Assembly: GCA_037349105.1 (NCBI GenBank) | Contig: JAYJMM010000106.1 | Span: 682,001 to 746,000, forward strand | Reading direction: 5' to 3' | DNA length: 64,000 nt | From: Limnomonas spitsbergensis | Taxonomy: Eukaryota > Chlorophyta > Chlorophyceae > Chlamydomonadales | Shown here: positions 13,583 to 63,040 of the stretch, in pieces | How positions within the stretch are numbered: the stretch's first letter is position 1 | Layout of the letters: each line of letters begins with the position of its first letter | Notes under the pieces: generated by a model | Database searches by the model: none | The model's input: the letters and a program-made list of their open reading frames with translations, nothing else | What the model was told of the DNA's origin: nothing | Position numbers and translations under genes: made by a program

Positions 13583-13723
13583 TCATGCTTTTAGGACCTC
13601 CCGCGGCCCGCACCTGCTCAGCTCCTGCACGCTCGGTCTGGTCCGTGCATCTTTCAGCAGGCATTTGCTGACGAAGTCGCAGAACTCTGGGGAGAACTGG
13701 TCCCGGGGCAGCGTGGGCGCTCC
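13583..13723 (-). CDS. MAPKK exon 11 (C-lobe end)
   Basis: Codes for [20 protein letters not shown] and [17 protein letters not shown], the last conserved kinase subdomain (XI), then CGPREVLKA and TGA. A GT follows SVQELSR (agcag then gtgcgg), so the exon may instead splice to an unseen last exon. The HPF-type ending usual in MAPKKs is missing. Confidence 0.85.
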   Translation of the reverse strand, partial: GAPTLPRDQFSPEFCDFVSKCLLKDARTRPSVQELSRCGPREVLKA

Positions 13724-16700
13724 CTGCAGGCAGATATTACAAATAAGTTGATAACAGGGAGAATCCAAGTCACAAAGCATTTGCCCACAATGGTCGCAGA
13801 ATCCAGGTGAGAGCTGGTCCCGGGTCAGCGTGGGTGCACCCTGGAGGCAGATATTACAAATCAGTTATTACAAAAAAGGGAGAATCCAAGTCACAAAGCA
13901 TTTGCCCACAAAGTCGCAGAAGTCTGGGGAGAACTGGTCCCGGGGCAGCGTGGGCGCACCCTGCAGGCAGATATTACAAACAAGTTGAAAAAAGGGAGAA
14001 TCAAAGTCACGAAGCATTTGCCCACAAAGTGGCAGAGCCCAGGTGAGCACTGGTCTTGGGGCAGCGTGGGCGCGCCCTGCAGGCAGACATAAAAACAAGT
14101 CGGAAAAAGGGAGAATCCAAGTCACAAAGTATTTCCCCACAATGTTGCAGAACCCAGGTGAGAACTGGTCCCGGGGCAGCGTGGGCGCACCCTGCAGGCA
14201 GATAGTAAAGCCGAATTTAAAGAAGGGGTCTGCAGGGAATCTGAATCACCGAGCATTTGCTTACAAGGGCGCAAAACCCAGGCAAGACATCGTCCCGGGG
14301 CAGCGTGGGCGCACCTTCCAGGCACACATTAACAACAACATAAAAAGGGGTTTAGAGGGCTACCTCCCACCCAACCCTCATTTCCTCCCCAACTGCCACC
14401 AAGCCTCCCACCCAACCAAGTATGTCCACCCCAACCACCACCTCCCAGTCAACCCTCATTTCCTCCCCAACTGCCACCAAGCCTCCCACCCAACCAAGTA
14501 TGTCTACCCCAACCGCCACCTCCCAGTCAACCCTCATTCATCACCAACTGCCACCAAGCCTCCCACCCAACCAAGTATGTCCACCCCAACCACCACCTCC
14601 CAGTCAACCCTCATTTCATCCTCAACTGCCACCAAGCCTCCCACCCAACCAAGTATGTCCACCCTAACCACCACCTCCCAGTCAACCCTCATTTCATCCC
14701 CAACGGCCACCAAGCCTCCCACCCAACCAAGTATGTCCACCCTAACCACCACCTCCCAGTCAACCCTCATTTCATCCCCAACGGCCACCAAGCCTCCCAC
14801 CCAAAGAAATATGTCCGCCCCCCAACCGCCCCTCCCCTTTCACCTCCATGACAATGTATTCCAGGAGCTCCCAGAATCCCAGCTGCACCCCCGCATCCTG
14901 CACATGCAGCGGTTTGAGGGGCAGGCATTAAGAGGGCGATTCACGATGTGGAGAACAGAGACTGCACATGCAGCGGGGGAAGATGTCGACAATAAGAGGG
15001 TGTTGGAAGCGGCGGATAACAGGGAGTGGATGCCCAGCGAGATGGAATGCAGAGCAAAAAGGTGCAGATGCAAGGCAATGATAGGAGCATCTTGAAGCTC
15101 AGCTGCACCCCGTCATTCTGCACATGCAGCAAGGCGAGATGCCGGCAACAAAAGGACGATGAAGGCTCCGGAGAATAGCATTGCACTACACCATGCTTAC
15201 CAGCCTTCTCCTCGACCTCCCAACCATGTCAGTGGCTAGGGAGGGTGGATAACAGACCGCGCACATGTACAGGGTGCAGGGCACGCATGGCGATACACCG
15301 CGCAGCGGGATTCACAGCATGCATGGGGGGTGCACAGCACACATGGCAAGGCACCCTATATATGTGAGCTTGGGGCTCCAGCAGTTGCCCTTGCCGTACC
15401 AGAGGGCGCGGGTACGGAAACCTGCCCAGGACGCACTTCACTAGCAACAGGCCCACAAGCTGCGCGTACCAGAGGGGGTGGATACAGAATCCTGCCCAAG
15501 GCGCATTCCACCCCTGTTGGGCCCATCAGCTACCCTCAGTCCCTCACCTGAGGGGGTGGATACGGAAACCTGCCCAGGGCGCATTCCACCAGGGTCAGGC
15601 CCAGCGACCACAGGTCAGAGTCGAACGAATAAGAGTCACCCTGAAAGAGTGAAAGGCAAGAGAGGGAGAGGGCACAGGGTTCAGGGTGCCGTGCAATATC
15701 AACCAGAGTTGGGCCAAGTGACCGCATGTCAGAAACAAATTAGTATTACTCATCCTGAAAGAGTGAGTGGTAAGAAAGGGATGGAGCAAAGGGTTCAGGG
15801 TGCCATGCCAATCCAACCAGGGTTAGGCCAAATGACCACAAGTCATAATCAAATGACTGAAGATAGTGTGAGTCATCCTGAGAGAGTGAGAGATACGAAA
15901 GGGAGGGGCCACAGGGTTCAGGGTTTAGGGTGCCTTTCAAACTCAATCAGGGTTAGGCCAAGTGACCACAGGTCAGAGTCAAAATAATATGACCTATTAC
16001 AAGAAAGCGAAAGGCAAGAGGGGGAGGGAGCCCAGTGTGAAGGTGTTCAGAGTGCCGTGCGGAATCCAGCAGGGTTGGACCAAGTCACCCGAGGCCTTGA
16101 GAGAAACGAGTACTGAGTCACCCTGGTTAGTGACTGGGGGCTCGGGAGAGACAACGAGCTCCAAGTCACCAGAGGCCTTGAGACAAACGAGTAGGAGTCA
16201 CCCTGATAAGCGACTGGGGGCTTGGGAGAGACAAAGAGGTCCAAGCCACCAGAGGCCTTGAGACAAACGAGTATTGAGTCACCCTGAAAAGCGACTGGGG
16301 GCTCGGGAGAGACAAAGAGGTCCAAGTCACCAGAGGCCTTGAGACAAACGAGTATTGAGCCACCCTGATAAGCGACTGGGGGCTCCGGAGAGGCAAAGAG
16401 GTGCAAGTCACCCGATGCTGGGGTGGGGTGCGGGGCGGGGTGGGGAGGCAAGTGGGGAGACAGGGAAGGGTGGTGGATCAATGCGCCTGTAGGGTGGCTG
16501 GCTGTACAGACGCGCCGGATAGAATGTGTTGAAGCATGAACATCTCACACAGATTGAGACTCAACAGCAAAGCTTCCCGGTATTTCATCTGCTGATCACA
16601 TCCTCTGGTATACCGTGGAACCACATAGACTTTGCTCAAAATCAATTAATTATTGGCCTGCGCAGACATGGCTGTGCATATAAATAAAATGTAAACCACC

Positions 16701-19700
16701 AGTAGGCATGTTCAAAAAGGAAAGAAAAAGGATTCTGTGGTTCCAAGTTGAGACTCCCTGGCGCGTCCGCCTCGTGCATGTGCCCACATTGATGCGCACA
16801 GGGCCCACCTTAATGCGCTCAGGGCTCATATACGTCACGGTGCCCACCCAGCTAAGGCAGTTGCTGACCTGTGTGTGTAGGGGGGGGGTGGGTGGCGGGC
16901 AGGCGTTACAAATGACAGGTTTCGGTATTTGTGTGAAAATTGTGTGGAAAATGGCGGCTGGCTCATGTAGGTCTGTGAGCACCCAGCTAAGACGATTGCG
17001 GACCAAAACCAGACCAAAACAAAGCACACATTGGGACAATAATGGAGATGAACCAGTAAATAATACATATGCTGTGTCCATCATCTGTGCCTCATACTCT
17101 GTGATGGGTAACAGCATGCGAGTGGCCTACACCCATGCCACACTCTTTCAGCGACCCTCAAACTCCTCCCCTGCTTTTCCCTGCAGGGCACTTCTTTCTT
17201 TCTTGCTTGCCCTTTCTTTCTTTCCATCTCCTTCTATATTTCTTTCTTTCTTTCTTGCATGGTGTGCTGCAGGGAGAGCTACGGCAAATGAAACAAACCA
17301 AAGGGGGCTCCAAGCTCCCTAAGCCATAGGTCAAGGCATTCGCTCATCGGAGGCTCTTGGTCACTCAAGCCACAGCTTATCTCACATTCAACAACAGAGA
17401 GTCCTTGCACCATAGCCATTTTGTTTAGTGGCACTTGAAAATAATTCTTTGGTTACCAGAAGAGTCAATCTCTGATAACCAAACCAGAGATTAACTCTTT
17501 GCTGCAGGTGCCCAAGTTTTTCCAATCCGAATTGATTTCGACGTTTCTCGTTACCGCGCGACAGAACTTCTGCTTCGCCGAATTAATCGTTTGGTTCACT
17601 CTTTCGTTACGGCTCGTCACCAGTAACCACTTCAAAATCCCTGATGGTCCATACTCTCCATGTCATGGCACGGTACCTACGCCTAGGCCCCTGAAATTGT
17701 TGTTGTTATTGTTACCAATTAAACGCAGTCGCCCACAGCATGGCGTGGAGCCTATGCTTACGCCCCTCTAATTGTTGTTGTTCTTGATATTAATTTAAAG
17801 CAACCGCTTATAGCCCCTGGCATTGTCCTAACTACGGCCTACAGCGCATGACCCAGTGTAATGAACCCACCGAGCTGGTCAGCTGCCCAGAGACCCCAAA
17901 GTCAGAGATCTTCAGTTCCCCGCGGCCGTTCAGGAGCAGGTTTGAGGGCTTGATGTCCCGATGTACCACATGCAGGTCCTTGTGTAGGTGCACCAGCCCA
18001 GACATTATCTGCACAAGTCGGTTTGAAAGAGTGTTAAACAAGTGCAGCAAGTTTGAGGGCTTGATGTCCCGATGTACCACATGCAGGTCCTTGTGTAGGT
18101 GCACCAGCCCAGACATAATCTGCACAAGTCGGTTTGAAAGAGTGTTAAACAAGTGCAGCAAGTTTGAGGGCTTAATGTCCCGATGTACCACATGCAAGTC
18201 CTTGTGTAGGTGCACCAGCCCAGGCATGCTCTATGCAGGAAGCGCTCTAGCATAAAACATACTGACATGATCGATTCGGAAAAGTGCTCAAACGCAGGAG
18301 CATGCAGGTCGTTGTGTAGGTGCAGCAGCCCAGACATGCTCTGAGGAGGGAGAGTGGTCAAAACATAGTAAACAACTGAAAGTTAAGTGCTTTAATCAGG
18401 AGCATGCAGGTCGTTGTGTAGGTGCAGCAGCCCAGACATGCTCTGAGGAGGGAGAGTGGTCAAAACATAGTAAACAACTGAAAGTTAAGTGCTTTAATCA
18501 GGGGCATGCAGGTCGTTGTGTAGGTGCAGCAGCCCAGACATGCTCTTGAGGAGGGAGAGGGGTCAAATATAGTAAACAACTGAACGTTAAGTGCTTTAAT
18601 CAGGAGCATGCAGGTCGTTGTGTAGGTACAGGAGCCCAGGCAGGATCTTCAGGGAAAGGATATGTTAAGGAGCCCTGGAAGCAGGAAGTATCTCACAGCC
18701 TCATCACCAGCTCCGCTGTGCGGGCATGAGCACTGCACAGGCCAGTGTCCATTTCAGAGTGCACCCTTGCGCCCCGGCCACTGAGCATTCCACATACTTG
18801 GGCATGGGTACCAAACCTGTACCAGCCTACTGCCAGGCACCCTAGGAGCAGGCGAACCCTGATGCATGTCCTGCCTGGCCATGGGCCGTGACGTAGCTGT
18901 ATAGCAGCTGAGGCGCTGCTCAAATAAAGGGTGGGGCAGGCTGAAGGCATCTGACGTTGTACAGGTGAGCAGCCATCACACTTGTCCCACCAGCTCAGCA
19001 ATGTAAGGCTCCGGCAGGCCCTTGAGCAAACTTGCCTGTCTCGCCAGCTCAGCGATGTACGGCTCTGGCAGGCCCTTGTGCAGTTTCAGTACGTCTGCCA
19101 GGCTGCCCCCGTCCATGTACTCCATGACAATGGTGATGGCGCCGTTATCAAAGAAAGCCTGGTCAAAGAGGGGTCAGAGATGAGGGTCTCACCATGAACC
19201 ATGAAACTCAGTAGGAACCAGCGTGAGCCATCTACCAGTATCTGACAGCCGGCATACCGTAGCTCAGCAGCCGCCTACGAATGCCCCAGTGCCTACTGCT
19301 ACCCAGCAGTTGCAATATCTGCCCCTCGTTGCCGACCCGCGTCAATGACCGCATGGCAGTGTGCTAGGAGAACGGCAAACTAAAAATGTCTGGCAGAAGA
19401 ATGACTGTCGAATCCGATTACTCGGGTCTTCTGTGTCAAGGGTGTAATGCATACATACTGCATTTGTACTGCATTTAAAGGTTGATGTGTACCGCGATTT
19501 GAACATAGGTTTATAGCCTTGTAGGTCAGGTGTAGGTTATACCCTGATCCATGGACCCCGAGGCCACGGTGATGTCGATGGAGCCAAGGTCAAGGAGGGC
19601 CTGGGAGGTGGGCTCGATGAGGTCGTTTTTGTTTGTTTAAGTTGGTCATGAAAACAGGCGTCTCCGTCAGTCGTCCCAGAGGCGGTTGGGACCGTGGGTT

Positions 19701-21327
19701 GATGGAGTGTTTCACAATGTTTGCTTTGCAGGGCTCGGATATGGTGACGAGGCGAGAGGGCTGGGGAGATAAGAAAGCAGGGCTTCACAGCATAGTCACA
19801 CGGTCACAAATTCTCCAAACAGAGCACTTGCTCAGGCGGGGCAGTGCAGGGACACATGCTGATGTGGGTTGAGTGGATGGACACATACTGAGGCGGGTGA
19901 GTGGAGGGGCACACGTGGATTATGGATGGCTACGAATGTTCCCACTAGACCAGTCATGTTTCCCGCGCTGCTTATCTCAGGAGCTATCTAAAAGGCTCCC
20001 ACCGGCTTCAGGCCTTCTCACCTGGTGATATTTCACGACGTTGGAATGACTGGAGCCATGGAGTGTTCTTAGCTCTGTGGTAATCTGCACAGTGGTGGCA
20101 TGAGAGACAATTGGCGTCGAGTGGCCGACACAGCATGGCCATGCTTGAAAAGCTTGAGGACAGACGATGTTTAATTCACAATTCTCATTGTTTTGATCCG
20201 TAATTTGTCACAAAAAAGAGACAATATTAGCTTTGGTAATGCAGTACCAGGATTGAATGCCCAGTTCACATAGACATTCCTCGCGCCTCCTGCTATGACA
20301 CACCTACCTGTTTTCGAATGATGTCCGAGCTGACATCAAACTGGATTACTTTGAGCACCAACAGCTGGCCATTGTGACGGTTCCGAACCTGAAGAGCACA
20401 GCAAAGCAAAAAGGAAGCAGGGAATTCAAAATCTGCGCTGGCCAGTCCCTGCACCCCGACAACATTTGTATATTTCCCATACTCATGGCGTTGCATTAAT
20501 AACTAAGCAAACGCCTGTTGCAACAGCAAACGCCTGTTGCAACAGCCCCATTACAAATTTACAGCAAGGCAATATGTGTCCCTTCGCTGAATACCACAGC
20601 CCCATCCCCATGGCTTGACTCACCTTCTTGGCCACTCCGCTGCTGCCGCTGCCAATCACTCCCAGCTCCTCTAGATCAGCCAGACTTAACTCACTGGTGC
20701 TCGTTGCACCTTGTTCTACGTCTCCTCCCTATTGAATTATTGAACGGGTCGAGCCCGGTGCATGGGGGAGGAGGGGAAGTCAGTTCGCATGGTTGTGAGC
20801 AGCAGCCACAAAAGGGCTTCATGGCTGCACCCAGAATACTGAGAGAAACCTGATTGGATTTTGATAGGGGCAAGAGCAACGAAGTCGCAACTGCTGTTGC
20901 ACCCCGTGACATCTCACCCGCGAAGCATCCTCAGGAGCACCACCAACAGATGTCCTGCGACACGCAGATAAACGTTATTTCAAGATGAATTATATCAGAG
21001 CAAGTCAAGCTGCCAGCGTCAAGGATTTTCCTCTCCCTGATACATACTCTGAGAGCATGTGAAGGGCACGTGAGAATGCTTCGCTAAGCGCACCCTGCTG
21101 AGGTGAAGCTGAGCGCAGGGGATGAGATCGTGAGGCCCTCTTTACCGATGGTCAAGTCGCCCTCAGTGAACTTGCCAGCGTTATTTCTGCGGGCCAACAA
21201 GCACAGCGGTGAGGCAGGCTAGGCTGGCTGGATCTACAAATCGAGTCACAAGGGGATTCACGCACATTGTATACGACGTCTTCAACTCCTGAGGCAAATT
21301 TAGTGGGTCGGGCCGTCTCCTCTGCAT
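13583..21327 (-). CDS. MAP kinase kinase (MAPKK/MEK-type dual-specificity kinase), 11 exons
   Basis: Joining 11 exons gives about 316 aa with no frame break, the usual MAPKK size. Order: N-terminal extension (about 1-50), Gly-rich loop GSGSSG (about 61-66), the VLK lysine (about 84), an [17 protein letters not shown] hinge, catalytic loop HRDIKPSN (about 176-183), DFGVS (196-200), an activation segment ending in MSPE (about 220-223), the MAPKK-typical DLWSLGLTL and GRFPYPPP, and a C-lobe segment [12 protein letters not shown]. The protein should phosphorylate a MAP kinase on its activation-loop Thr and Tyr in the cytosol. The activation segment has Ser and Thr residues where upstream MAPKKKs act. 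Nearly every intron carries repeats derived from adjacent exon edges. The gene diverges from the myosin gene across 372 bp. The last exon ends at an in-frame TGA but also contains a possible donor, so the C-terminus is uncertain. Confidence 0.88.
13724..14330 (-). repeat. About 118-bp tandem array of MAPKK exon 11 starts
   Basis: Five additional units (near 13825, 13942, 14058, 14173 and 14298) carry the acceptor ctgcag and a degenerate copy of the exon start. The minus strand of one reads [20 protein letters not shown]. Four of the five keep a usable AG before the copy. Confidence 0.88.
14345..14810. repeat. 78-bp tandem repeat, about 5.5 units
   Basis: Unit core 'ccaccaagcctcccacccaa', spaced 77-78 bp. 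It lies in the MAPKK intron between exons 10 and 11. Open frames across it on both strands arise from the unit length (26 codons) and are not taken as genes. Confidence 0.9.
14844..14882 (-). CDS. MAPKK exon 10 (microexon)
   Basis: A 13-codon exon, [13 protein letters not shown], phase 0, between GRFPYPPPQ and [10 protein letters not shown]. This matches the FWELL-D-IV segment of MAPKKs. Donor gtgaaa; acceptor gtgcag. Confidence 0.85.
14885..15186 (-). repeat. Degenerate copies of the MAPKK exon 10 acceptor
   Basis: The motif 'ctgcacatgcagc' recurs three times. Near 15085-15120 a copy of acceptor plus exon start (gtgcag then ctgagcttcaag) is visible, reading LSFKMLL on the minus strand. Confidence 0.6.
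15385..15547 (-). repeat. Tandem copies of the 3' end of MAPKK exon 9
   Basis: Two units of about 78 bp repeat the exon end (segments like 'gaaacctgcccaggacgc', coding LGRFPYP on the minus strand) before and including donor-like sequence. They lie directly downstream of the exon in gene direction. Confidence 0.8.
15548..15640 (-). CDS. MAPKK exon 9 (subdomain IX)
   Basis: 31 codons, with [19 protein letters not shown] and RFPYPPPQ, diagnostic of MAPKKs. The acceptor is tttcag and the donor gtgagg. Both edges of this exon are amplified in the flanking introns. Confidence 0.93.
15641..16000 (-). repeat. About 120-bp degenerate copies of the MAPKK exon 9 start
   Basis: Units near 15749, 15873 and 15990 repeat the acceptor and first half of exon 9. 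On the minus strand fragments such as [12 protein letters not shown] can still be read in one unit. Other units are frameshifted. Confidence 0.78.
16085..16415 (-). repeat. 81-bp tandem array containing the MAPKK exon 9 acceptor
   Basis: About four units ('cagaggccttgagacaaacg' core). Each unit begins on the minus strand with an AG followed by a copy of the exon's first codons (ggtgactc then tactcgttt). The unit is 27 codons long, so one minus frame stays open across the array. Confidence 0.8.
16809..16868 (-). CDS. MAPKK exon 8 (activation segment)
   Basis: 20 codons, [29 protein letters not shown] is the P+1 loop of MAPKKs and the Ser and Thr residues before it include the likely phosphorylation sites. 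Phase 0; donor gtgggc. Confidence 0.92.
16965..17020 (-). repeat. Degenerate copy of MAPKK exon 8 in the upstream intron
   Basis: The minus strand reads [15 protein letters not shown] where the true exon has [16 protein letters not shown]. Base identity is clear ('gtcttagctgggtg'), about 150 bp upstream of the exon in gene direction. The conserved GTVTY is lost, so this is not a usable alternative exon. Confidence 0.7.
17021..17868. other. MAPKK intron 7, outer part
   Basis: Contains a T/C-rich tract with tttctttctttc runs (17185-17260), then unremarkable sequence. No ORF or repeat unit of the exon-edge kind was seen apart from the exon 8 copy just outside this interval. Confidence 0.4.
17871..18008 (-). 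CDS. MAPKK exon 7 (catalytic loop and DFG)
   Basis: 46 codons, with [11 protein letters not shown] and [13 protein letters not shown]. The HRD aspartate and DFG aspartate are intact. The acceptor is tgtgcag and the donor gtgggt. Two further copies of the exon's first half lie upstream in a 111-bp tandem array with their own acceptors. Confidence 0.92.
18009..18245 (-). repeat. 111-bp tandem copies of the MAPKK catalytic-loop exon start
   Basis: Two extra units (starting near 18052 and 18163 on the plus strand) repeat the first half of exon 7, including the acceptor and the [10 protein letters not shown] codons. The unit is 37 codons long and contains no stop in the kinase frame, so the reading frame stays open through all three copies. 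The linker reads [12 protein letters not shown]. Confidence 0.9.
18280..18645 (-). repeat. About 105-bp tandem repeats with exon 7 acceptor-like starts
   Basis: Four units share 'ttgtgtaggtgcagcagccc'. On the minus strand they read as diverged exon 7 starts ([13 protein letters not shown]). They lie upstream of the 111-bp array and look like older copies of the same junction. The last one (near 18600-18640) is the most diverged. Confidence 0.8.
18986..19035 (-). repeat. Duplicate of the 3' end of MAPKK exon 6
   Basis: On the minus strand the segment reads [16 protein letters not shown], a near copy of the true exon end ([16 protein letters not shown]). It lies immediately downstream and is followed by GT. 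Using this second donor would insert a second PEPYIAEL block if the frame allows. Confidence 0.75.
19036..19158 (-). CDS. MAPKK exon 6 (hinge region), apparent GC donor
   Basis: 41 codons including [18 protein letters not shown] and [12 protein letters not shown]. The exon is followed by gcaagt, a GC-AG type donor. A second, slightly diverged copy of its last 45 bp follows directly (18991-19032) and has a GT donor (gtgtga). Confidence 0.88.
20022..20084 (-). CDS. MAPKK exon 5 (alpha-C helix)
   Basis: 21 codons, [20 protein letters not shown] then Q. This carries the alpha-C glutamate and the SNVV motif. Phase 0 at both ends; donor gtgaga. Confidence 0.88.
20308..20388 (-). CDS. MAPKK exon 4 (catalytic lysine)
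   Basis: 27 codons with [13 protein letters not shown], where the VLK lysine contacts ATP, and the MAPKK-typical IIRKQ at the end. The donor is gtaggt and the acceptor cttcag. Confidence 0.9.
20624..20693 (-). CDS. MAPKK exon 3 (glycine-rich loop)
   Basis: Codes for [19 protein letters not shown] followed by VAKK, the nucleotide-binding glycine loop. The donor is gtgagt. The start after 'caccag' fits the phase of exon 2. A neighbouring AG (caacgag) would also keep the frame. Confidence 0.85.
21094..21186 (-). CDS. MAPKK exon 2
   Basis: Codes for [20 protein letters not shown] and on, matching the GTFKDGDL-type segment before the kinase domain in MAPKKs. The acceptor is cccgcag. It ends in phase 2. 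Confidence 0.75.
21278..21327 (-). CDS. MAPKK exon 1 (start)
   Basis: ATG at 21327-21325 begins [16 protein letters not shown], resembling the basic/proline N-terminus (docking-site region) of plant MAPKKs. It ends two bases into a codon at a GT (gtcgta, a weak donor) and joins exon 2 in phase. The upstream frame offers no other ATG near by. The call rests on phase and resemblance. Confidence 0.6.
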
Positions 21328-21699
21328 CCTCTTAAGCTCGAAGAGTCGAAGACAAGGAAATGAAATATGAAAAGCCCTGCAACGTGTCACAGCTCAAACA
21401 AAGGGGACGCTTGAGCTAATCAGAGCAATGCAGGCAAAATGCATTAACCCGCGAGCTGGCTTTGCCCTGATGCAAAGCGGGTCTGTTCTTCACACCTCGA
21501 CGTTTGAGGGGGGTTGGGCATTGTTCGAACTGGACCTGCCGATGTTCAAAAACCGGGACGTGTAACTGCTTGCAAAGCAATGCAAACCACGTATAGTAAA
21601 ACATTTATGTACACCTGACTCGGCTAAAATTCTTGGACAGGTTTTTGAGGGCCACGACTCATTACAGCGAGCTAACTAACAGGGACAGCTTTTCAGAGA
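21328..21699. promoter_or_regulatory. Shared divergent promoter region (MAPKK / myosin)
   Basis: 372 bp separate the two proposed start codons, which face away from each other. No TATA box is clear. A 'tttcag' before the myosin ATG could be a splice acceptor from an upstream non-coding exon. Function is inferred only from layout. Confidence 0.45.
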
Positions 21700-49508: not shown

Positions 49509-50713
49509 TGTTGGGGGGACCTTCGTGTTCTTTCTGTTTGGTGGGTAAACTTGCTATCTTTTCTCCCCTATTAGGCCTTCTCCCTTAACTTTCCTAGCTG
49601 TATTTTTGTTTGCCGACGTGGCCGAGCTTCAATTCAGCATGGCCCAGCGGTGTTATGTCATTAACATGTCTTTGGGGGGAGGAGGAATATCATGCCCAGG
49701 AGGTGTGCCCCTGAACCTGTCTATGTCAATGACATTACACCTCTGGCCCCGGCTTAAAAAAGAACCCCTACAGGATGGACAGAGGTTGGGAGGAATCAGA
49801 CCCCGGTAACACGCTGGCCAAATTTTTCGCTCCGCTCCCCTTGGGGCTCCCCCAGTGTTTCTCTTTCATGAATCAGCTACATGTCAGCTACATTCGGGCC
49901 GGAGACCCCATTTTGCGGCCAACCTTGCTGCTTCGGTCACCATTGGCATGCCGGTGTAGGTTTGGTCCCAATTGGGCCTATGGCGGCCGCTGGGCGGCCT
50001 GCCGAAGTTGAACTTGAGGCCGGCAACAAAATAAATACTTGGCTCTCCCATTCTAGTCCACTACAATTGTCCAATGTGGGGTGGCCGCCAGCTATTTGTT
50101 GTCAATGGGTTTAGTGAAGGTGCCGTGGCCCTCAGCTTGGAAATTCTGCAGTTGCGCTGTGCAGGGGACATCATAGCAGTGTAATATGAGTGGGGCCACG
50201 TGGCAACAAACAAGTGTAACACGAGAAGTGTAACACCATAGCAGTAATAGGAGTGATGCAACATGCCAGCATACGTGTAACACGCGTGCCGGAACATCGC
50301 AATATGTGGTAACAAGTGATGTGACAGCAAAGTGTAATATGGGTGACAGGAAATCACAGCAGTGTCATATGTGACGGGGCAGCAATTTAGTGTAATATGA
50401 GTGGCACACCAGCACAACGTGTAATATGAGGGATGTACTACGACACCACAACCGAATCATATGAGTGATGGGGGCAGAACATCAATTAGCATGCATGATA
50501 TAGCAGGACAGCTGTCTAATAAGGGATGCAACATGACAGCACAAACAGTGTATTATGAGTGATCTGGGGCCACATAAGTGTAATATAAGTGATCTGGGGC
50601 CACATAAGTGTAATAGATGTGATCTGGGGCCACATAAGTGTAATATAAGTGATGCACGACCTCATGTCTCATGGGCCCTGGGTCCATCCGTTTCCACATG
50701 GTCGTTGATAATG
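49509..50713. repeat. Dispersed repeats and 'gtgtaatatgagtg' units
   Basis: Copies of the first-kilobase family (49605-49660 plus, 49715-49775 minus), a CAGCTACA-family copy (49865-50045), then diffuse 'gtgtaatatgagtgatg' repeats (50170-50460) and four 30-bp 'gatctggggccacataagtg' units (50560-50660). No gene seen. Confidence 0.7.
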
Positions 50714-50962
50714 TTAATCACGACCTTGAAAGTGTGTAATGTGAGTGATACAGCCAGACGTAGTACAGCAGTTGGTAAGTGTAAAAGGAGTGATGCATGA
50801 CCCTAGGCATGATGCACGGCCCATGCATCTGTCCCCTCCCCCGGCCCCACCTGTTCCAACAAGGTCACTGATGATGATGGCCATGACTTTGAACTTGTGC
50901 TCTGTGCTGTTGGTCTTCGAGGAAATGGCGATGCTCAAGACACACTCCCGGTGCTGGCTCAC
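50714..50962 (-). CDS. SGNH exon 10 of those seen (C-terminus)
   Basis: Starts VSQHRECVLSIAISSKTNST then EHKFKVMAIIISDLVGTG. The frame runs to a stop at 50714, but a GT at 50850 (gtgggg) after the conserved part may be a donor, so residues after GT may be intronic. A 'gctcacctgatcagggcaga' copy of the acceptor lies at 51068 in the upstream intron. Confidence 0.8.
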   Translation of the reverse strand: MSQHRECVLSIAISSKTNSTEHKFKVMAIIISDLVGTGGAGGGDRCMGRASCLGSCITPFTLTNCCTTSGCITHITHFQGRD

Positions 50963-53900: not shown

Positions 53901-56900
53901 CTCTCCTGCCTGCATTCATGGGTTGTGGCAGGCCCTCCATCAGCAGCTCCTCGTCCTCATTGCTCCAAGGGCGGATCAGCAGGTCTATAACAGTCTGGAG
54001 GATCAGCCACACGGCCAGATCCGCCATCATCTTGTGGCCCACATCCTGCAACATTGGGTTGGATAACAAAATCGACAACAAGATCCGAGCTGTCTGAAGG
54101 ATGAGCAGATATAAGCCTGTCTGAAGGATCAGCAGATCAGAGGTAGTGTGAAGGATCAGCAGATCCAAGGTAGTGTAAAGGATCAGCAGTACAAGAGTGA
54201 TTTGAAGGATCAGCAGATATAAAGGCCTGTGGAGGATCAGCAGTACAAGAGTGTTCTGAAGGATCAGCATATCCAAGGTAGTGTAAAGGATCAGCAGTAC
54301 AAGAGTGTTCTGAAGGATCAGCAGATCTTAAGCCCTGTGGAGGATCAGCAGTACAAGAGTGTTCTGAAGGATCAGCAGATCCAAGGTAGCGTAAAGGATC
54401 AGCAGTACAAGAGTGTTCTGAAGGATCAGCTGATCTAAAGCTGTCTGAAGGATCAGCAATCCAGCAGTACAAGAGCAGTATGAAGGATTGGCAGAGCCAC
54501 AGTGGTCTTAAGGATGAGCAGATTTAAGGCGGCAGAGCCACAGTGGTCTTGAGGATGAGCAGATCTAAGGCGGCAGAGCAACAGTGGTCTGGAGGATGAG
54601 CAGATCTTAGGCGGCAGAGCCACAGTGGTCTGGAGGATGAGCAGATCTAAGGCGGCAGAGCCACAGTGGTCTTGAGGATGAGCAGATCTAAGGCGGCAGA
54701 GCAACAGTGGTCTGGAGGATGAGCAGATCTAAGGCGGCAGAGCCACAGTGGTTTGGAGGATGAGCAGATCTAAGGCGGCAGAGCAACAGTGGTCTGGAGG
54801 ATGAGCAGATTTAAGGCGGCAGAGCCACAGTGGTCTGGTGGATGAGCACATCTAAGGCGGCAGAGCCACAGTGGTCTTAAGGATGAGCAGATCTAAGGCG
54901 GCAGAGCAACAGTGGTCTGGAGGATGAGCAGATCTAAGGCCTTCTGGAGGATCAGCAGATATAAGGCATTCCAGAGGATAAGCAGATCTAATAAGGCGGT
55001 TTGGTGGATCAGCCACATGGCCAGATCTGCCATCATCTCGAGACCCATGTCCTGTGCATGAGGCACCGCAAATGTGGGAGGGTGGAAAGATCCTGGCCCA
55101 CCACTGTGGTGGTGAGGGGTGTGGGGAGAGTGTCGCGATTCAGCTACAGCTCGTCTTCCTATCGGCCTCGGAAAGGAGGCACCATGTCCAGGCAGCCTGC
55201 CGAGCACGCACCGATGGATGAATCAAGTCTCCCCACATGATCTTGCTGTAGGAGAACGCGGTGGCGTTTGCATCGAACCTTGCTAGCCTACAGACAGGGT
55301 GGCAGATAGTGGGTGGGTGGGTGGATGGCAGATCGTGGGTGGGTGGGCCCATGAGTGGGTGGTAGATAGTGGGTGGGTGGGTCGGTGAGTGGGTGGTAGA
55401 TATTGGGTGGGTGGTTGGGTAACTGGGTGGCTGAAAGTGGGTGGGTGGGTGGTGAGTGGGTGGTAGATAGTGGGCGGGTGGGTTCATAAGTGGGTGGCTG
55501 ATAGTGGGTGAGTGCGTCCTTAAGTAGGTGGGTGGGTGAGTGGGTGGCAGGAAGTGGGAGGGTGATTGGATGACAGGGAGTGGATGGGTGCGTCTGTGAG
55601 TTGGTGGGTGGGTGACTGGGTGGCAGATAGTGGATGGGTGGGTCCATGAGTGGGTCACAGGTAGTGGGTGGGTGGGTCGGTGAGTGGGTGGTAGATAGTG
55701 GGTGGGTGGGTCGGTGAGTGGGTGGTAGATAGTGGGTGGGTGGATGGGTGAGTGGGTGACTGATAGTGGGTGGGTGGGTGGGTGGTTGAGTGGTAGATAG
55801 TGAGTGGGTGGTAGATAGTGGGTGGGTGGGTGGGTGGTTGAGTGGTAGATATTGGGTGGGTGGGTGGTTGGGTGGTAGATAGTGGGTGGGTGGGTCGGTG
55901 AGTGGGTGGTAGATAGTGGGTGGGTGGGTCGGTGAGTGGGTGGTAGATAGTGGGTGTGTGGGTGGGTGAGTGGGTGGTAGATAGTGGGTGTGTGGGTGGG
56001 TGGTTGAGTGGTAGATAGTGAGTGGGTGGTAGATAGTGGGTATGTGGGTGGGTGGTTGAGTGGTAGATATTGGGTGGGTGGGTGGGTGGTTGAGTGGTAG
56101 ATAGTGGGTGGGTGGGTTGGTGGGTGGGTGGTAGATGGTGGATGGGTGGGTCGGTGAGTGGGTGGTAGATAGTGGGTGGGTGGTTGGGTAACTGGCTGGC
56201 TGAAAGTGGGTGGGTGGGTGGTGAGTGGGTGGTAGATAGTGGGCGGGTGGGTTCATAAGTGGGTGGCTGATAGTGGGTGAGTGCATCCTTAAGTAGGTGG
56301 GTGGGTGAGTGGGTGGCAGGAAGTGGGAGGGTGATTGGATGACAGGGAGTGGATGGATGCCTGTGAGTTGGTGGGTGGGTGACTGGGTGGCAGATAGTGG
56401 ATGGGTGGGTCCATGAGTGGGTCACAGGTAGTGGGTGGGTGGGTCGGTGAATGGGTGGTAGATAGTGGGTGGGTGGGTCGGTGAGTGGGTGGTAGATAGT
56501 GGGTGGGTGGATGGGTGAGTGGGTGACTGATAGTGGGTGGGTGGGTGGGTGGTTGAGTGGTAGATATTGGGTGGGTGGGTGGTTGGGTGGTAGATAGTGG
56601 GTGGGTGGGTCGGTGAGTGGGTGGTAGATAGTGGGTGGGTGGGTCGGTGAGTGGGTGGTAGATAGTGGGTGTGTGGGTGGGTGAGTGGGTGGTAGATAGT
56701 GGGTGTGTGGGTGGGTGGTTGAGTGGTAGATAGTGAGTGGGTGGTAGATAGTGGGTATGTGGGTGGGTGGTTGAGTGGTAGATATTGGGTGGGTGGGTGG
56801 GTGGTTGAGTGGTAGATAGTGGGTGGGTGGGTTGGTGGGTGGGTGGTAGATAGTGGATGGGTGGGTCGGTGAGTGGGTGGTAGATAGTGGGTGGGTGGTT

Positions 56901-59900
56901 GGGTAACTGGGTGGCTGAAAGTGGGTGGGTGGGTGGTGAGTGGGTGGTAGATAGTGGGCGGGTGGTAGATAGTGGGTGGGTGGGTGGGTGGTTGAGTGGT
57001 AGATATTGGGTGGGTGGGTGGTTGGGTGGTAGATAGTGGGTGTGTGGGTGGGTGAGTGGGTGGTAGATAGTGGGTGGGTGGGTCGGTGGTTGAGTGGTAG
57101 ATAGTGAGTGTGTGGTAGATAGTGGGTATGTGGGTGGGTGGTTGAGTGGTAGATATTGGGTGGGTGGGTGGGTGGTTGAGTGGTAGATAGTGGGTGGGTG
57201 GGTCGGTGGGTGGGTGGTAGATAGTGGATGGGTGGGTCGGTGAGTGGGTGGTAGATAGTGGGTGGGTGGGTGGGTGAGTGGGTGGCTGAAAGTGGGTGGG
57301 TGGGTGGTGAGTGGGTGGTAGATAGTGGGCGGGTGGTAGATAGTGGGTGGGTGGGTGGGTGGTTGAGTGGTAGATATTGGGTGGGTGGGTGGTTGGGTGG
57401 TAGATAGTGGGTGTGTGGGTGGGTGAGTGGGTGGTAGATAGTGGGTGGGTGGGTCGGTGGTTGAGTGGTAGATAGTGAGTGTGTGGTAGATAGTGGGTAT
57501 GTGGGTGGGTGGTTGAGTGGTAGATATTGGGTGGGTGGGTGGGTGGTTGAGTGGTAGATAGTGGGTGGGTGGGTCGGTGGGTGGGTGGTAGATAGTGGAT
57601 GGGTGGGTCGGTGAGTGGGTGGTAGATAGTGGGTGGGTGGGTGGGTGAGTGGGTGGTAGATCATGGGTGGCAGCCTGGCAGGATGGCGACGGCGTGCACC
57701 GCATTCATACACATGAAGTATGCAAAATCAGCTGTGAGGGGCCTGTCTAAGGTGCACGTTAACGGAGACCTGCATGGAAGCTACAGGAGGAGCTACATGG
57801 CAAGCTGCATTAGGACTGCATGGGGAGCTTGCATGCGCTGCATGGGAAGCTACATGGCAAGCTGCATGAAGACTGCATGGGGAGCTACATGGGAAGCTGC
57901 ATGGTGAGCTTGCATGGGGAGCTGCATAGGAGCTGCATGGGGAGCTGCATGGGGGGCTTACATGGGGAGCTTCATGGTGAGCTTCATGGCGAGCTTGCAT
58001 GGGGAGCTGCATGGAAAGCTGCATGGGGAGCTGCATGGGGAGCTTGCATAGGGAGCTTGTATGGGGAGCTAATGGGGGGCTGCAAGGGGGGCTGTATGGG
58101 GAGCTGTATGGGGAGCTTGCACGAGGAGCTGCATGGGGAGATGCATGGGGAGCTACATGGGGAGCTTGCATGGGGAGCTTGCATGTGCTGCATGGGGAGC
58201 TACATGAGGAGCTACATGGAAAGCTGCATGAGGAGCTGCATGGGGAGCTGCATGAGGAACTACATAGAAAGCTGCATGGGGAGGTGCATAAGGAGGTGCA
58301 TGGGGAGGTGCATGGGGAGGTGCATGGCAAGCTGCATGGGGAGCTTGCATGGGGAGCTTCATGGTAGGCTGCATGGGGAGCTGTATGGGGAGCTGTATGG
58401 GGAGTTGTATGGGGAGCTTGCACGAGGAGCTGCATGGGGAGCTGCAGGGGGAGCTGCATGGAGAAATCTGAGAATAGCAGTCGCATTATGAGCAGATGCA
58501 ATGGGGTGCAGCACTACAGCTACCTTTCTCCTCATGTGTCAAACCTGTAAGTTGCGCTCCTGAGGCTGAGTACTTGCACGTCGTAGTACTGACCAAGTGT
58601 CCCGTACACATCCTCTGCCCTCAGTGAGTGGTGCAGGGTAAGAGGCAGAGGGAACATAGAGTCAGCCACAAGGAGAGTATGAAGGCCACACACACACACA
58701 GACACACGTACACATGCACATCAACACATACATGCACACACACATGCATTCGGACATGTACATGTACATAAGTACATCAACACACACAAGTGCACACACA
58801 CACAGAATGCAATACAGACTACTCACACCATCTGCATTCTCGACCCCTGCTCTGAACCTCCCATACTGCAGCGCACCTACCATGTTATGGCAAGGCAATG
58901 GGTTAAACCCTTAACTCTAACCCGCACCTACCATGTTATGGAAAGGCAATGGGTCAAACCGTAAACCGTTAACCCTAAACCGCACCTATCGTGTTATGGA
59001 AAGGCAATGCGTCAAACCGTAAACCGTAAACCCTAAACCGCACCTATCGTGTGATGGAAAGGCAATGGGTCAAACCCTTAAACCTAAACCCTAACCCCTA
59101 AACCGTACCTATCGTGTGGTGGAAAGGCAATGGGTTAAACCCATAAACCCTAAACCCTAACCCTAAACCGCACCTATCGTTTGATGGAAAGGCAATGGGT
59201 TAAACCCTAAACCCTAACCCTAAATCGCAAATCGCACCTATCGTGTGATGAAAAGGCAATGGGTTTAACCCTAAACCCTAACCCTAAATCGCACCTATCG
59301 TGTGATGAAAAGGCAATGGGTTAAACCCTAAGCCCTAACCCTAAATCGCACCTATCGTGTGATGAAAAGGCAATGGGTTAAACCCTAAGCCCTAACCCTA
59401 AACCGCACCTATCGTATGATGGAAAGGCAACCAGCCCGGCGTGGTATTAGACGGGTGTGCACAGCCGTGACACAGCACCTTCCTCGGGGCAGGGGAGGGA
59501 GGGCAGGGAATGTCAAACAGCCCGGCATGGAATTAAATGGGTTCACAGCCTTAGGGCATGGGCCCAGTGGTGGCCGCCCTTCTACCCTCCAAACACAGTC
59601 TGGTGCGCACTAAAATGACCACTGTGGTGCACGCGTCTCATCATTTCGCATCCATGCCCCACATCCTGTTTCATCATGCATCTCCTCCATGCCGCACATC
59701 TTGTCTCCTCCATGCCGCACATCTTGTCTCCTCAATGGCTCCGTGCCGTATATCACGCGAATGTGCATTTATCCTTACAGCACGCATGCACGCACTCACC
59801 CAAGAGTCCTATGTGTACATTTTCCTTTCAGCTATACAAAAGCTGGGATCTACAGAACCAGGCCCCCCCCCCGGTCATAGGCCATGATGTAGCTGAACTG

Positions 59901-62837
59901 TAGCTGAAGGCACCCTATTAGGAACACTGCACTGGCTGACATGCAGCTGAACTGTACCTGAAGGCGCCCTAAGAGGAAAACTGCACTGTCGGACGTGTAG
60001 CTCAACTGTAGCTGAAGCGCCCTAACCGAAGCACTGCATTGGCTCGAGTGTAGCTGAACACTTTCGAATAACCAATGCACTAAAAGGAAGGAAGGTGGGC
60101 TCACCTGCATCATGGTGGGCCTATGGTGGGCTCACCTGCATCATAATGGGCCTATGATGGGCTCAAGTGCATCATGGTGGGCCTATGGTGGGCCTATGGT
60201 GGGCTCACCTGCATCATGACCATGGCCGGTCGCTGGGGCAATGATATTACTTTCCGCATCAACCGCTCGGTCTGCCTAGACATGACATTCTCGATGGAGT
60301 TCAGAAAGCCGTCGTTCCTGCGATCACAGGAATGTTTCAGGTTTAGGGTTTAGGGTTTAGGATTTAGGGTTTAGGGTTTAGGTAGGGAAAGTGTTCAGTG
60401 TTCAGTGTCCAGTGTCCAGTGTTCAATGCTCAGTGTTCAGTGTTCAGTGTCCAGTGTTCAGTGTTCAGTGTTCAGTGTTCAGTGTTCAGTGTTCAGTGCT
60501 CAGTGTTCAGTGTTCAGTGTTCGGTGTTCAGTGTTCATTGTTCAGTGCTCAGTGCTCAGTGCTCAGTGTTCAGTGTTCAGTGTTCAGTGTTCAGTGTTCA
60601 GTTCTCAGGGTTCAGTGTTCAGTGTCCAGTGTTCAGTGTTCAGTGTTCAGTGTTCAGGGCTCAGTGTTCAGTGTTCAGTGTTCAGTGTTCAGTGTTCAGT
60701 GTTCAGTGTTCAGTGTCCAGTGTTCAGTGTTCAGTGTTCAGTGTTCAGTGTTCAATGCTCAGTGTTCAGTGTTCAGTGTCCAGTGTCCAGTGTTCAGTGT
60801 TCAGTGTTCAGTGTTCAGTGTTCAGTGCTCAGTGCTCAGTGTTCAGTGTTCATTGTTCAGTGTTCATTGTTCAGTGTTCAGTGTTCAGTGTTCAGTGTTC
60901 AGTGTCCAGTGTCCAGTGTCCAGTGTCCAGTGTCCAGTGTCCAGTGTTCAGTGTTCAGTGTTCAGTGTTCAGTGTTCAGTGTTCAGTGTTCAGTGTTCAG
61001 TGTTCAGTGTTCAGTGCTCAGTGCTCAGTGTTCAGTGTTCAGTGTTCAGTGTTCAGTGTTCAGTGTTCAGTGTTCAGTGTTCAGTGTTCAGTGTTCAATG
61101 CTCAGTGTTCAGTGTCCAGTGTCCAGTGTTCAGTGTTCAGTGTTCAGTGTTCAGTGTTCAGTGTTCAGTGTTCAGTGTTCAGTGTTCAGTGTTCAGTGTT
61201 CAGTGTTCAGTGTTCAGTGTTCAGTGTTCAGTGTTCAGTGTTCAGTGTTCAGTGTTCAGTGTTCAGTGTTCAGTGTTCAGTGTTCAGTGTTCAGTGTTCA
61301 GTGCTCAGTGTTCAGTGTTCAGTGTTCAGTGTTCAGTGTTCAGTGTTCAGTGTTCAGTGTTCAGTGTTCAGTGTTCAGTGTTCAGTGTTCAGTGTTCAGT
61401 GTTCAGTGTTCAGTGTTCAGTGTTCAGTGTTCAGTGTTCAGTGTTCAGTGTTCAGTGTTCAGTGTTCAGTGTTCAGTGTTCAGTGTTCAGTGTTCAGTGT
61501 TCAGTGTTCAGTGTTCAGTGTTCAGTGTTCAGTGTTCAGTGGTCAGTGTTCAGTGTTCAGTGTTCAGTGTTCAGTGCTCAGGGTTCAGTGACTGCTGGTG
61601 CTACATTCAAACCCTGATCCCTGAGCACTGGGGTCGCGTTACGTTGCTGACGTAGAGCTCATTGCGCCAGATTCAAGTACATGAAAAGCTCTCCGGAGCG
61701 CTGATTTAGGAAGCCAGCTATTTAGCCGATGCACCAGGTAGGCCAACATATTCACTATCTGCACACATAATGCGAGAGCATTATGCATTTATGCTTACGC
61801 CCCTCCTTATACCCGGCTCACAATGTGTCCTCTGTGAAGTACGTGTTTGAGGCGTGTAACCCCCCCCTCCCCGCCACGCCCACCCTCGCAGCCCCACCCC
61901 CGCCAGCCCCATCCCCGCCAGCCCCATCCCCGCCAGCCCCACCCCTGCCACGCCCCCCCCCGCCAATCCCTACCCCGCCCCTCCCCCCCCCACCACACCC
62001 ACCCCCGCCACACCCACCCCCGCCACGCCCACCCCCACCACGCCCAATCCCACCCCCGCCACGCCCCCACCTACCCCGCCACCCCCACCCCCGCCACCGC
62101 CCCCACCCTTGCCACGCCCCCACCTACCCCGCCACCCCCACCCCCGCCACCGCCCCCACCCTTGCCACGCCCCCACCTACCCCGCCACCCCCACCCCCGC
62201 CACCGCCCCCACCCTTGCCACGCCCCCACCTACCCCGCCACCCCCACCCCCGCCACCGCCCCCACCCTTGCCACGCCCCCAACCATCCCTGCCCCCCCCC
62301 CCCCCCCCCCCCCCCCGGCCATCCCCCCCACCAACCCGCCACGCCCATACCCACCGCCCACACCCCCAGAGGCCGTCGCTGACGTATCTTATTAGCCACA
62401 CATACTCATAACATGTCCTCTATTTAGTACGTGTTCATGAATCATGAGTATCAGAATATGTCAGAACCTAACGATATGCAATGACATGCAATGTATGCAA
62501 TTATATGCACGTGTGTGCAGCACGTATGGCCCGTAGTCACAGCGTCGTCATACACAAAATAAGTATCATGTGAGGAGCCGGGGTCCAGCCAGTCAAAAAT
62601 TGAGGATGAGCCCATTGAACATCCTCGAGATGAACCCGTGTGTACAGCTCTGGTCCTCCAACCGGTTCAACTCAGGTTCTTCATCTAGTCGGTCTTGGCT
62701 ACCCCCCGGCCCTCCCCTAATCCTACTCTAGTTCTCCCCTGAAACAAATGTATGGCCCTTACTCACAATATGTACTCAGAAAACAAGATGTCCACATCCT
62801 GATCCACCAGCTCGTTGAAACAGAGCACCGTGTAAGC
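50714..62837 (-). CDS. SGNH-hydrolase-like protein, 10 exons, N-terminus not identified
   Basis: Ten exons join in phase to about 420 codons. Visible motifs in order: VDILFSEYILNDG (SGNH block III-like Asn), ERLMRKVISLPQRPAMVMM, YGTLGQYYDVQVLSLRSATY, WGDLIHPSDVGHKMMADLA (block V, catalytic Asp-x-x-His as DVGH), then GLVGLQPGDFVQFRID, GFLKSYQHMG, a Cys-rich CECQEREMDAHHARR segment and HRECVLSIAISSKTN / STEHKFKVMAIII. This layout is that of an SGNH/GDSL-type esterase-like family common in volvocine algae, often secreted or Golgi-located and thought to act on cell-wall or capsule glycans; that role is knowledge of relatives, not shown here. The nucleophile-serine block should lie upstream and was not found, perhaps beyond the window. 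Introns between exons are filled by arrays, many with exon-edge copies. Confidence 0.8.
51166..51307 (-). CDS. SGNH exon 9 of those seen (Cys-rich)
   Basis: 47 codons plus one base, with VPNLCGCDPCLASCSSGCEC and QEREMDAHHARRTSQTHM. Eight closely spaced Cys suggest disulfides, which fits a secreted protein. Acceptor ccccag, donor gtgggg. Confidence 0.82.
51308..52264. repeat. SGNH intron 8: CAGCTACA-family copies and telomere-like runs
   Basis: Copies near 51400-51600 and 51800-51990 (plus) and 52070-52260 (minus), with 'aaccctaaaccctg' runs at 51495 and 51665. No gene seen. Confidence 0.75.
52265..52538 (-). repeat. Tandem copies of the SGNH exon 8 donor region with telomere-like repeats
   Basis: Six units of about 45-55 bp on the minus strand: gtttgtgcagggaggtgc, ggcctctg, tttagggtttaggg. 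The first unit starts at the donor itself. Confidence 0.85.
52539..52734 (-). CDS. SGNH exon 8 of those seen
   Basis: 64 codons, DFVQFRIDTWRGSPLGARSP to GFLKSYQHMGVAVA. SYQHMG is typical of the family. Acceptor ctgcag; donor gtttgt, weak but the one that keeps frame with exon 9. Confidence 0.8.
52750..53375. repeat. (GA)n-rich polypurine tract, about 625 bp
   Basis: Plus strand is almost only G and A ('gagagagaggagagagag'), minus strand is polypyrimidine. It lies in the intron before SGNH exon 8, so it forms a very long polypyrimidine tract ahead of the acceptor. Purine strand ORFs (RE-rich) are not genes. Confidence 0.95.
53500..53631 (-). CDS. SGNH exon 7 of those seen
   Basis: 43 codons, NHVHDSPLCVYSEGLQALLV to KKKKKGLVGLQPG. 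Acceptor ccgcag, donor gtgagc, phases 2 in and 1 out. Confidence 0.85.
53740..53910. repeat. C-rich (ccctcccc)n tract
   Basis: Low-complexity pyrimidine tract in and next to the end of SGNH exon 6. It may form G-quadruplexes on the minus (coding) strand. Confidence 0.85.
53865..54045 (-). CDS. SGNH exon 6 of those seen (catalytic Asp-His)
   Basis: Begins DVGHKMMADLAVWLILQ, TVIDLLIRPWSNEDEE, GLPQPMN. It must end in phase 1; the first fitting donor (gtgagg) lies after an Arg/Gly-rich stretch read from C-rich DNA, so the 3' limit is uncertain. Confidence 0.75.
54095..55000. repeat. Tandem array derived from inside SGNH exon 6
   Basis: Two unit types: about 54 bp ('gaaggatcagcagatccaag' / 'ggatcagcagtacaagagtg') and 41 bp ('gcagagccacagtggtctgg' + 'aggatgagcagatctaaggc'). 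On the minus strand they read LLILQT..., like the exon's WLILQTVIDLLI, so the array seems to descend from the exon edge. Confidence 0.85.
55005..55062 (-). repeat. Degenerate copy of SGNH exon 6 start
   Basis: The minus strand reads DMGLEMMADLAMWLIHQ against DVGHKMMADLAVWLILQ in the true exon. The catalytic His is Leu here, so this copy would give a dead enzyme if used. It lies about 1 kb upstream of exon 6, beyond an array made of the exon's own ILQT region. Confidence 0.85.
55212..55287 (-). CDS. SGNH exon 5 of those seen
   Basis: 25 codons plus one base, LARFDANATAFSYSKIMWGD then LIHPS, ending right before the DVGH of block V. Acceptor ctgtag, donor gtgcgt. Confidence 0.85.
55305..57665. 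repeat. GGGTGGGT/GGTAGATAGT satellite, 2.3 kb
   Basis: Degenerate units of about 20-33 bp ('gtgggtggtagatagtgggt') with larger repeated blocks of several hundred bp: the segment near 55430-55690 recurs near 56200-56460, and 56960-57290 recurs near 57330-57660. It begins directly at the SGNH exon 5 acceptor side. Very long minus-strand ORFs of Pro/Thr/His come from it and are not genes. Confidence 0.93.
57775..58465. repeat. 'gcatggggagct' short tandem array
   Basis: About 690 bp of 12-bp-like units (gcatggggagct, gcatgaggagct), purine-rich on the plus strand. It lies in the SGNH intron between exons 4 and 5. ORFs through it are artefacts. Confidence 0.93.
58545..58614 (-). CDS. SGNH exon 4 of those seen
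   Basis: Codes (E)DVYGTLGQYYDVQVLSLRSA then TY. QYYDV--LSLR is a family hallmark. Donor gtttga, phase 2. Confidence 0.88.
58829..58865 (-). CDS. SGNH exon 3 of those seen (microexon)
   Basis: A 12-codon exon plus one base, YGRFRAGVENAD. Phase 0 start, phase 1 end, exactly what exons 2 and 4 need. Acceptor ctgcag, donor gtgtga. Confidence 0.7.
58866..59430 (-). repeat. About 57-bp telomere-like tandem repeat next to SGNH exon 3
   Basis: About nine units pairing 'cgcacctatcgtgtgatgga' with 'caatgggttaaaccctaa'. The first part resembles the exon 3 acceptor region ('gcgcacctaccatg'), so the array may have started at that junction. TTTAGGG-type heptamers are mixed in. Confidence 0.85.
59431..60094. 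other. SGNH intron 2, outer part
   Basis: Holds three 'ccgcacatcttgtctcctc'-type units (59685-59735) and several minus-oriented CAGCTACA motifs (59880-60060). No gene seen. Confidence 0.6.
60095..60208 (-). repeat. Tandem copies of the SGNH exon 2 donor
   Basis: 'gggctcacctgcatcatggt' recurs at about 60110, 60130 (variants) and 60200. On the minus strand each is ...atgcag then gtgagccc, so the 5' splice site is present about three to four times within 110 bp. Confidence 0.88.
60209..60317 (-). CDS. SGNH exon 2 of those seen
   Basis: 36 codons, NDGFLNSIENVMSRQTERLM then RKVISLPQRPAMVMMQ. The ND completes block III. ERL-RK-L-LP-RPA-V is typical of the family. Donor gtgagc. Confidence 0.9.
60337..60390. 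repeat. Interstitial telomere-like block (TTTAGGG)n
   Basis: Six or so 'tttaggg' heptamers with one variant (tttagga). It directly precedes the TTCAGTG heptamer satellite. Confidence 0.95.
60391..61595. repeat. 7-bp (TTCAGTG)n satellite, about 170 units
   Basis: Nearly pure heptamer with variants TCCAGTG, CTCAGTG and TTCATTG. A 7-bp unit leaves three plus frames open as SVQCSVF-type repeats, which are not genes. It lies in the SGNH intron between exons 1 and 2. Confidence 0.97.
61855..62380. repeat. C-rich array, 57-bp units
   Basis: Early part made of 'cgccagccccatcccc'; later units of about 57 bp 'cccccacccttgccacgccc' + 'ccacctaccccgccaccccc'. A run of about 25 C lies near 62290. Strong G-quadruplex potential on the minus strand. 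Pro-rich and Gly-rich ORFs through it are not called. Confidence 0.93.
62400..62766. other. SGNH intron 1, inner part
   Basis: Unique-looking sequence with short 'atgcaatgtatgcaattata' repeats near 62480. No gene seen. Confidence 0.5.
62767..62837 (-). CDS. SGNH exon 1 of those seen
   Basis: 23 codons, AYTVLCFNELVDQDVDILFS then EYI, phase 2 end before gtgagt. The D-D--FSEY pattern precedes the ND of block III. Upstream exons are expected. Confidence 0.82.
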
Positions 62838-63040
62838 CTGGGGTGGGGAGGACAACGAAATTCATGGATTTCAGCTACAATTCGGCTACAATTTAGCGAC
62901 CAGTCAGCTGCAGATTGGCTGCATCACCGTGTACGCCTAGGGTGGGGAGTAAAACAAAATTCGTGAAGTTCATCTACAATTCGGCTACAATTCGGCAGTA
63001 GTTCGGCTACCTCACCATTCTAGCCTGGTGTCGGGGGCCA
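62838..63040 (-). repeat. Degenerate copies of the SGNH exon 1 acceptor
   Basis: 'caccgtgtacgcctagggtg' near 62926 repeats the true junction 'caccgtgtaagcctggggtg' near 62826. A third, weaker copy ('caccattctagcctggtgtc') lies near 63013. They are separated by CAGCTACA-type motifs. Confidence 0.8.

Follow-up and report, generated by a model that had tools for sequence, protein, structure and literature searches.

Tandem copies of exon edges recur in the introns of three neighbouring genes and of kinesin genes in the green alga Limnomonas spitsbergensis

Duplication across a splice junction is known from single genes. In the potato RdRp gene, a tandem duplication spans one intron-exon boundary, with the splice signals of the copy coming mostly from the parental border (Ma et al. 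2016, PMC4974935). The copies described here likewise cross one border, but a new intron is reported in the potato gene, whereas here the copies, frequently arranged in series, occupy introns that already exist and concern roughly one in four of the exon edges tested. The duplication model of intron gain, traced in the same paper to Rogers 1989, invokes an AGGT-bearing exon segment (PMC4974935); the resemblance lies in the tandem duplication of sequence carrying splice dinucleotides, and the difference in the duplicated piece, which here consists of one existing splice site plus intron, no new intron being shown. In Chlamydomonas reinhardtii and Volvox carteri, tandem-repeat density is highest in introns (PMC3887541), with units of 1-50 bp and, in the relevant part of that survey, exon sequence within units left unmentioned; repeats are commoner there towards intron ends, unlike the array midpoints here, which are consistent with a uniform spread. 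Minisatellites in human segmental duplications alter gene structure in about 7% of the genes there (PMC2812944), resembling the present case in that expansion alters gene structure and differing in that recent human paralogues are involved. By title and abstract, no report of exon-edge tandem copies at such a frequency was recognised among the open papers searched, which is weak evidence of absence, and the frequency observed here is notable.

The window, meaning the whole 64,000-nucleotide stretch analysed, covers positions 682,001-746,000 of its contig in a genome of 260 Mb and 124 contigs, and carries in order a MAPKK gene, a myosin gene and an SGNH-like gene on the minus, plus and minus strands (Table 1). 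Exons of the myosin and MAPKK genes were placed by eye, with all exon limits inferred from sequence and homology. Each of these two exon sets forms a single open frame; acceptors at internal junctions are AG, and donors are GT save for one GC. The 5' myosin exons placed are also matched by algal myosins, the best-scoring named relatives being the green algae Chlamydomonas eustigma, Chlamydomonas sp. UWO 241 and Haematococcus lacustris; the further N-terminal matches and the intron preceding the P-loop exon stand outside the junction tests. The SGNH draft shows 42% identity to its Chlamydomonas eustigma homologue, with 93% of the draft covered. A short exon is apparently missing between placed exons 2 and 3, as suggested by comparison with homologues, and that interval was therefore left out of the tests. 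The GC donor, at 19035, follows the end of a MAPKK exon (CAG|GCAAGT), and the intron copy of this exon end reads CAAGTG at the corresponding place by eye.

Table 1. Genes, exon-edge arrays and exon-edge copies in the window. Probe values are scores against the shuffle maximum.
Feature	Position	Strand	Basis
MAPKK-like protein kinase gene	12824..20686	-	10 exons placed; open frame; Pkinase E 3.2e-63
Array, ~116-bp unit: acceptor and start of MAPKK exon 13723-13614	13661..14338	-	TRF; acceptor probe 41 vs 12
Copies of end of MAPKK exon 15640-15548 and donor	15420..15545	-	donor probe 35 vs 17; sequence read
Array, 114-bp unit: acceptor and start of MAPKK exon 15640-15548	15636..15854	-	TRF; acceptor probe 26 vs 15
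Arrays, 111-bp and 102-bp units: acceptor and start of MAPKK exon 18008-17871	17935..18639	-	TRF; acceptor probe 43 vs 15
Copy of end of MAPKK exon 19158-19036 and donor region	18980..19035	-	donor probe 32 vs 13
Myosin, further N-terminal matches	22276-23721	+	algal myosins by tblastn, near 22.3, 22.7, 23.6 kb
Intron copy of start of myosin P-loop exon	26109..26168	+	tblastn with algal myosins, 80-95% identity
Myosin gene	26215..46698	+	15 exons placed; open frame; green algal homologues
Array, 104-bp unit: acceptor and start of myosin exon at 27528	27166..27500	+	TRF; acceptor probe 14 vs 13; 3 junction copies
Degenerate copies: acceptor and start of myosin exon at 29862	29308..29860	+	acceptor probe 28 vs 14; 4 junction copies
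Array of end of myosin exon 30211-30289 and donor: 179-bp unit, 10.3 copies, 98% matches	30243..32076	+	TRF
Copy of start of myosin exon at 36919	36740..36918	+	acceptor probe 37 vs 14
Copies: acceptor and start of myosin exon at 39603	39360..39602	+	acceptor probe 17 vs 13
Copy: end and donor of myosin exon 44838-45021	45065..45105	+	donor probe 18 vs 14
SGNH hydrolase-like gene	50092..62837	-	10 exons placed; piecewise alignment to four homologues
Arrays, 27/54/41-bp units related to start of SGNH exon 54045-53910	54090..55060	-	TRF; three arrays with exon-edge homology

Copies of exon edges were scored with edge probes, each comprising the first or last 45 nt of the exon and no intron sequence, against the adjoining intron, and an edge was counted as positive when its score exceeded that of every shuffle (60 in the first run, 99 in the repeat). 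In the myosin and MAPKK genes, 16 of the 46 edges are positive with 60 shuffles and again with 99. The earlier note had described junction copies in three neighbouring genes, which is largely borne out over the three genes together (18/62 edges with 99 shuffles), although the SGNH gene is the weakest of the three, with 2/16 edges positive and one further edge with a junction-spanning copy; its copies at exons 1 and 2 are seen by eye only. For the edges listed by exon, the numbering of that note was assumed to equal the placed exon plus 2 in MAPKK and plus 4 in myosin. All six MAPKK edges listed are positive with 60 shuffles. Seven of the ten myosin edges are likewise positive, and acceptor 5 is recovered through the second copy at 26109; donors 15 and 16 fail, being reached by 2/60 and 25/60 shuffles and seen only in the looser junction-spanning test. 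Positives absent from that list, with 60 shuffles, are MAPKK acceptor 8 and myosin donors 13 and 14.

A control set of kinesin genes, picked without regard to repeats via the Pfam kinesin model, shows the same pattern elsewhere in the genome, with 10/44 edges positive in 5 genes. These positives are confined to 5 of the 20 regions fetched, which were taken roughly by best match order and not at random (66/139 matches used), and their introns were called by pairing matches and weighing phase and splice scores; of 33 such predictions, 22 were retained and 11 fell below the score cut. Across both sets, own edges are positive in 28/106 cases against 2/106 for foreign edges, from other genes, scored in the same introns, and junction-spanning probes find at least one copy at 20/106 junctions (7/44 in the kinesins). 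Exon-edge copies are thus real, exceed their controls and occur outside the window too; both samples, taken from a single genome, show them at roughly one edge in four. Wrong exon limits or an assembly artefact, to which exon limits inferred from sequence lend some room, are a very improbable source of the pattern, given open frames across the junctions, conserved proteins, identities of 71% to 100% between spanning copies and the native junction, and recurrence in other genes.

The MAPKK array at 13661..14338 holds five junction copies, four with AG, and all six genome matches of its unit lie there, while one more copy is located past the array at 15636..15854. The myosin 179-bp array keeps GT in 10/10 junction copies, with 10 genome matches, all at this locus. 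A fuller copy of the start of SGNH exon 54045-53910 is found at protein level at 54977-55060.

Introns in this sample are rich in local repeats, with direct repeats covering 55.5% of intron bases in 53 introns. At interior positions, direct copies reach 55% against 3% for inverted copies in myosin and MAPKK, and 43% against 2% in the kinesins; exon interiors, with 40 nt omitted at each exon edge, show 3-5% direct and 0 inverted. The copies within introns are head-to-tail and in direct orientation, which fits intronic minisatellites formed by local tandem duplication. Growth of introns by duplication, as the earlier note proposed, agrees with the correlation between intron length and repeated fraction (Spearman 0.62, p 6e-7, 53 introns): the mean repeated share is 15% in introns shorter than 300 nt and 64% in those longer than 1000 nt, the median intron being 655 nt. 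Introns with no repeat detected (15/45) measure 168-863 nt, with a median of 325. Median intron lengths of 198-343 nt are given for six core-Reinhardtinia algae in the data reported in PMC8226300.

Exon-edge copies are found mainly in long introns, with a positive edge in 19/35 introns of at least 500 nt and in 3/18 shorter ones. Within the window the figure is 12/23 introns of at least 500 nt, so that the statement that most large introns contain such copies holds for about half of them. Describing the introns as built from junction copies is likewise too strong: 14 of the 50 window arrays carry exon-edge homology. Together with the kinesins (5/14), 19 of the 64 arrays of period at least 20 are homologous to the adjoining exon edge at an empirical p of at most 0.02, some passing narrowly, and 45/64 are not; exon-edge arrays are therefore a large minority and not the rule, holding 7205 of 20894 array bases.

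TRF also reports very long arrays at 32759-34822 (41 bp x 50), 37394-39197 (36 bp x 50) and 60390-61590 (7 bp x 171). Exon-edge homology was not detected in the first two, and the third, with a period below 20, falls outside that test.

Insertion of mobile intron-like elements or dispersed satellites at exon edges is an extremely improbable origin of the copies. Dispersed short elements are present in the genome, one 20-mer having 1406 exact matches, and array 24624-25469, which lies outside the exon-homology test, is matched in part, over short lengths, on four other contigs. Against this, both exon-edge units tested are private to their own locus, with the edge copies showing similarity to the very exon they adjoin. 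Introner elements, with near-identical intron sequences at many unrelated genes, were considered as a candidate and rejected on the two exon-edge units tested, both of which are single-locus.

The central question is whether junctions are targeted. The earlier note inferred a local mechanism that duplicates across splice junctions, and a targeted process of this kind would start duplication preferentially at junctions; transcription-linked breaks, or splicing intermediates that prime repair, are conceivable triggers. The share of edges with copies, roughly one in four, is in keeping with it, as is the U-shaped distribution of intronic tandem repeats published for a set of species that includes green algae (PMC3887541). 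A duplication profile, in which a 40-nt probe was counted when a direct copy lay within 1.5 kb, gives a different picture. Probes with a local copy number 12/88 at 60 nt inside exons, 24/106 at junctions, 35/106 at 60 nt inside introns and 39/94 at 200 nt inside introns. Pooled over offsets of 60-100 nt in 53 introns, the fractions are 0.104 in exons, 0.226 at junctions and 0.324 in introns, and bootstrapping by intron places the junction minus exon difference between 0.019 and 0.223 and the intron minus junction difference between 0.000 and 0.186. A junction peak was sought in this profile across 53 introns and none was found, the values rising from exon through junction to intron. Because the paired tests are borderline (junction vs intron p 0.05-0.10, junction vs exon p 0.03-0.08), a strong junction peak is better excluded than a mild one. 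Array midpoints show no departure from uniform (KS p 0.38-0.72), and the 45 arrays without exon-edge homology likewise speak against targeting.

The premise of the earlier note, that random satellites would not meet junctions so often, was compared with a seeding null in which the probability that a randomly placed unit of length u spans a border of an intron of length I is approximately 2(u-20)/(I+u-20). Expected crossings depend on ancestral intron length and are uncertain for that reason; the lower expectation uses the present residual intron length, and the upper takes ancestral introns to have been no longer than 250 nt. For periods of at least 25, crossings number 3/33 in the window genes against 4.4-10.0 expected and 4/8 in the kinesins against 1.9-2.8 (P 0.13-0.31); with looser TRF settings, the counts are 6/39 (5.9-11.2 expected) and 4/11 (2.3-3.5). 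For periods of at least 10, without SGNH, 9/45 crossings are found against 5.8 expected, and 13/69 against 7.6 with looser TRF, a mild excess. Crossings thus lie near those from uniform seeding, and the premise fails because the units are not short relative to the spacing of junctions. The mild excess in the period at least 10 run and in the small kinesin set would favour targeting, yet it could also reflect the longer recognisability of exon copies, since the exon itself does not drift. A junction-targeting mechanism is not supported, and we regard it as unlikely. Apparent targeting of this sort calls for a null that includes both unit length and intron length.

The observations are probably best explained by untargeted tandem duplication of pieces of about 20-240 bp, lost in exon interiors and tolerated across exon edges, so that the exon-edge copies would be a spill-over of a general process. 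Pieces of this size would duplicate in place without regard to position, some expanding to tens of copies, with slippage, unequal exchange or end joining as the likely mutational step. Duplications falling wholly within coding sequence would usually be lost, presumably through selection. Because repeat-free introns and exons are short, a randomly placed unit often straddles a border, and such an event is nearly neutral because one copy stays joined to the exon body and the old protein can still be spliced. The intron would then lengthen by whole units, each bringing along part of the exon and an additional splice site, and the extra sites would act as decoys, with the site adjoining the exon body taken as the one in use.

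The claim that decoy splice sites are left behind is supported by the splice-site-spanning copies, 43 of 54 of which keep the native dinucleotide. Dinucleotide identity is 0.913 against 0.948 for other aligned columns at donors, and 0.871 against 0.859 at acceptors, so that decoy splice sites decay like the surrounding intron. Neither purging nor retention of decoys is clearly seen. Retention of exon-edge copies to tune splicing or to make isoforms would accord with the kept dinucleotides and with the finding that, of 26 decoys intact in the myosin and MAPKK genes, 3 would if used add an in-frame, stop-free piece. Such a function is quite improbable, as conservation of the dinucleotides does not clearly exceed that of the columns beside them, and in 23 of the 26 a stop codon precedes the rejoining of the frame. 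The 111-bp MAPKK unit is one of the three that would add an in-frame piece. Its acceptor-array units at 17935-18230 lie within one open frame, so the nearest upstream copy, if used, would add 37 aa.

Untargeted duplication of this kind would allow introns to grow while the gene product is preserved. Tentatively, junction-crossing tandem duplication may be a leading genome-wide route of intron growth in this lineage, with at least a quarter of edges carrying competing splice-site copies, a proposition we find possible but hold at somewhat less than even. If true, it would amount to a natural experiment on the choice of the spliceosome among near-identical sites, for example in myosin intron 30290-36028, where the real donor is accompanied by ten near-identical donor copies. 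One site tandemly repeated within a single intron, with no sign of purging, offers a natural test of splice-site choice, and gene finders may be misled by exon-edge copies in such genomes. The interest of the locus is the frequency of the copies and this natural test, not a junction-directed machine.

Other elements are present in the window. Interstitial telomere-like motifs of the CCCTAAA type are represented by CCCTAAACCCTAAA, which has 29 matches when one mismatch is allowed, where shuffles predict 0.01, the exact matches lying at window positions 41118, 52399, 52445, 60342, 60363 and 63189. Several such motifs sit inside intron arrays, for example at 35301-35789 and 58904-59430. The intervals 51808-51838 and 52234-52263 form part of a dispersed short element containing the 20-mer TTCAGCTACAATTCAGCTAC; its 1406 exact genome matches compare with none for the reversed control, and some occur in a row on contig C9 at a spacing of about 109 bp. 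An open frame of 2395 aa at 4781-11968 contains two CCHC zinc-knuckle stretches and is suggestive of a gag-like protein of a retroelement.
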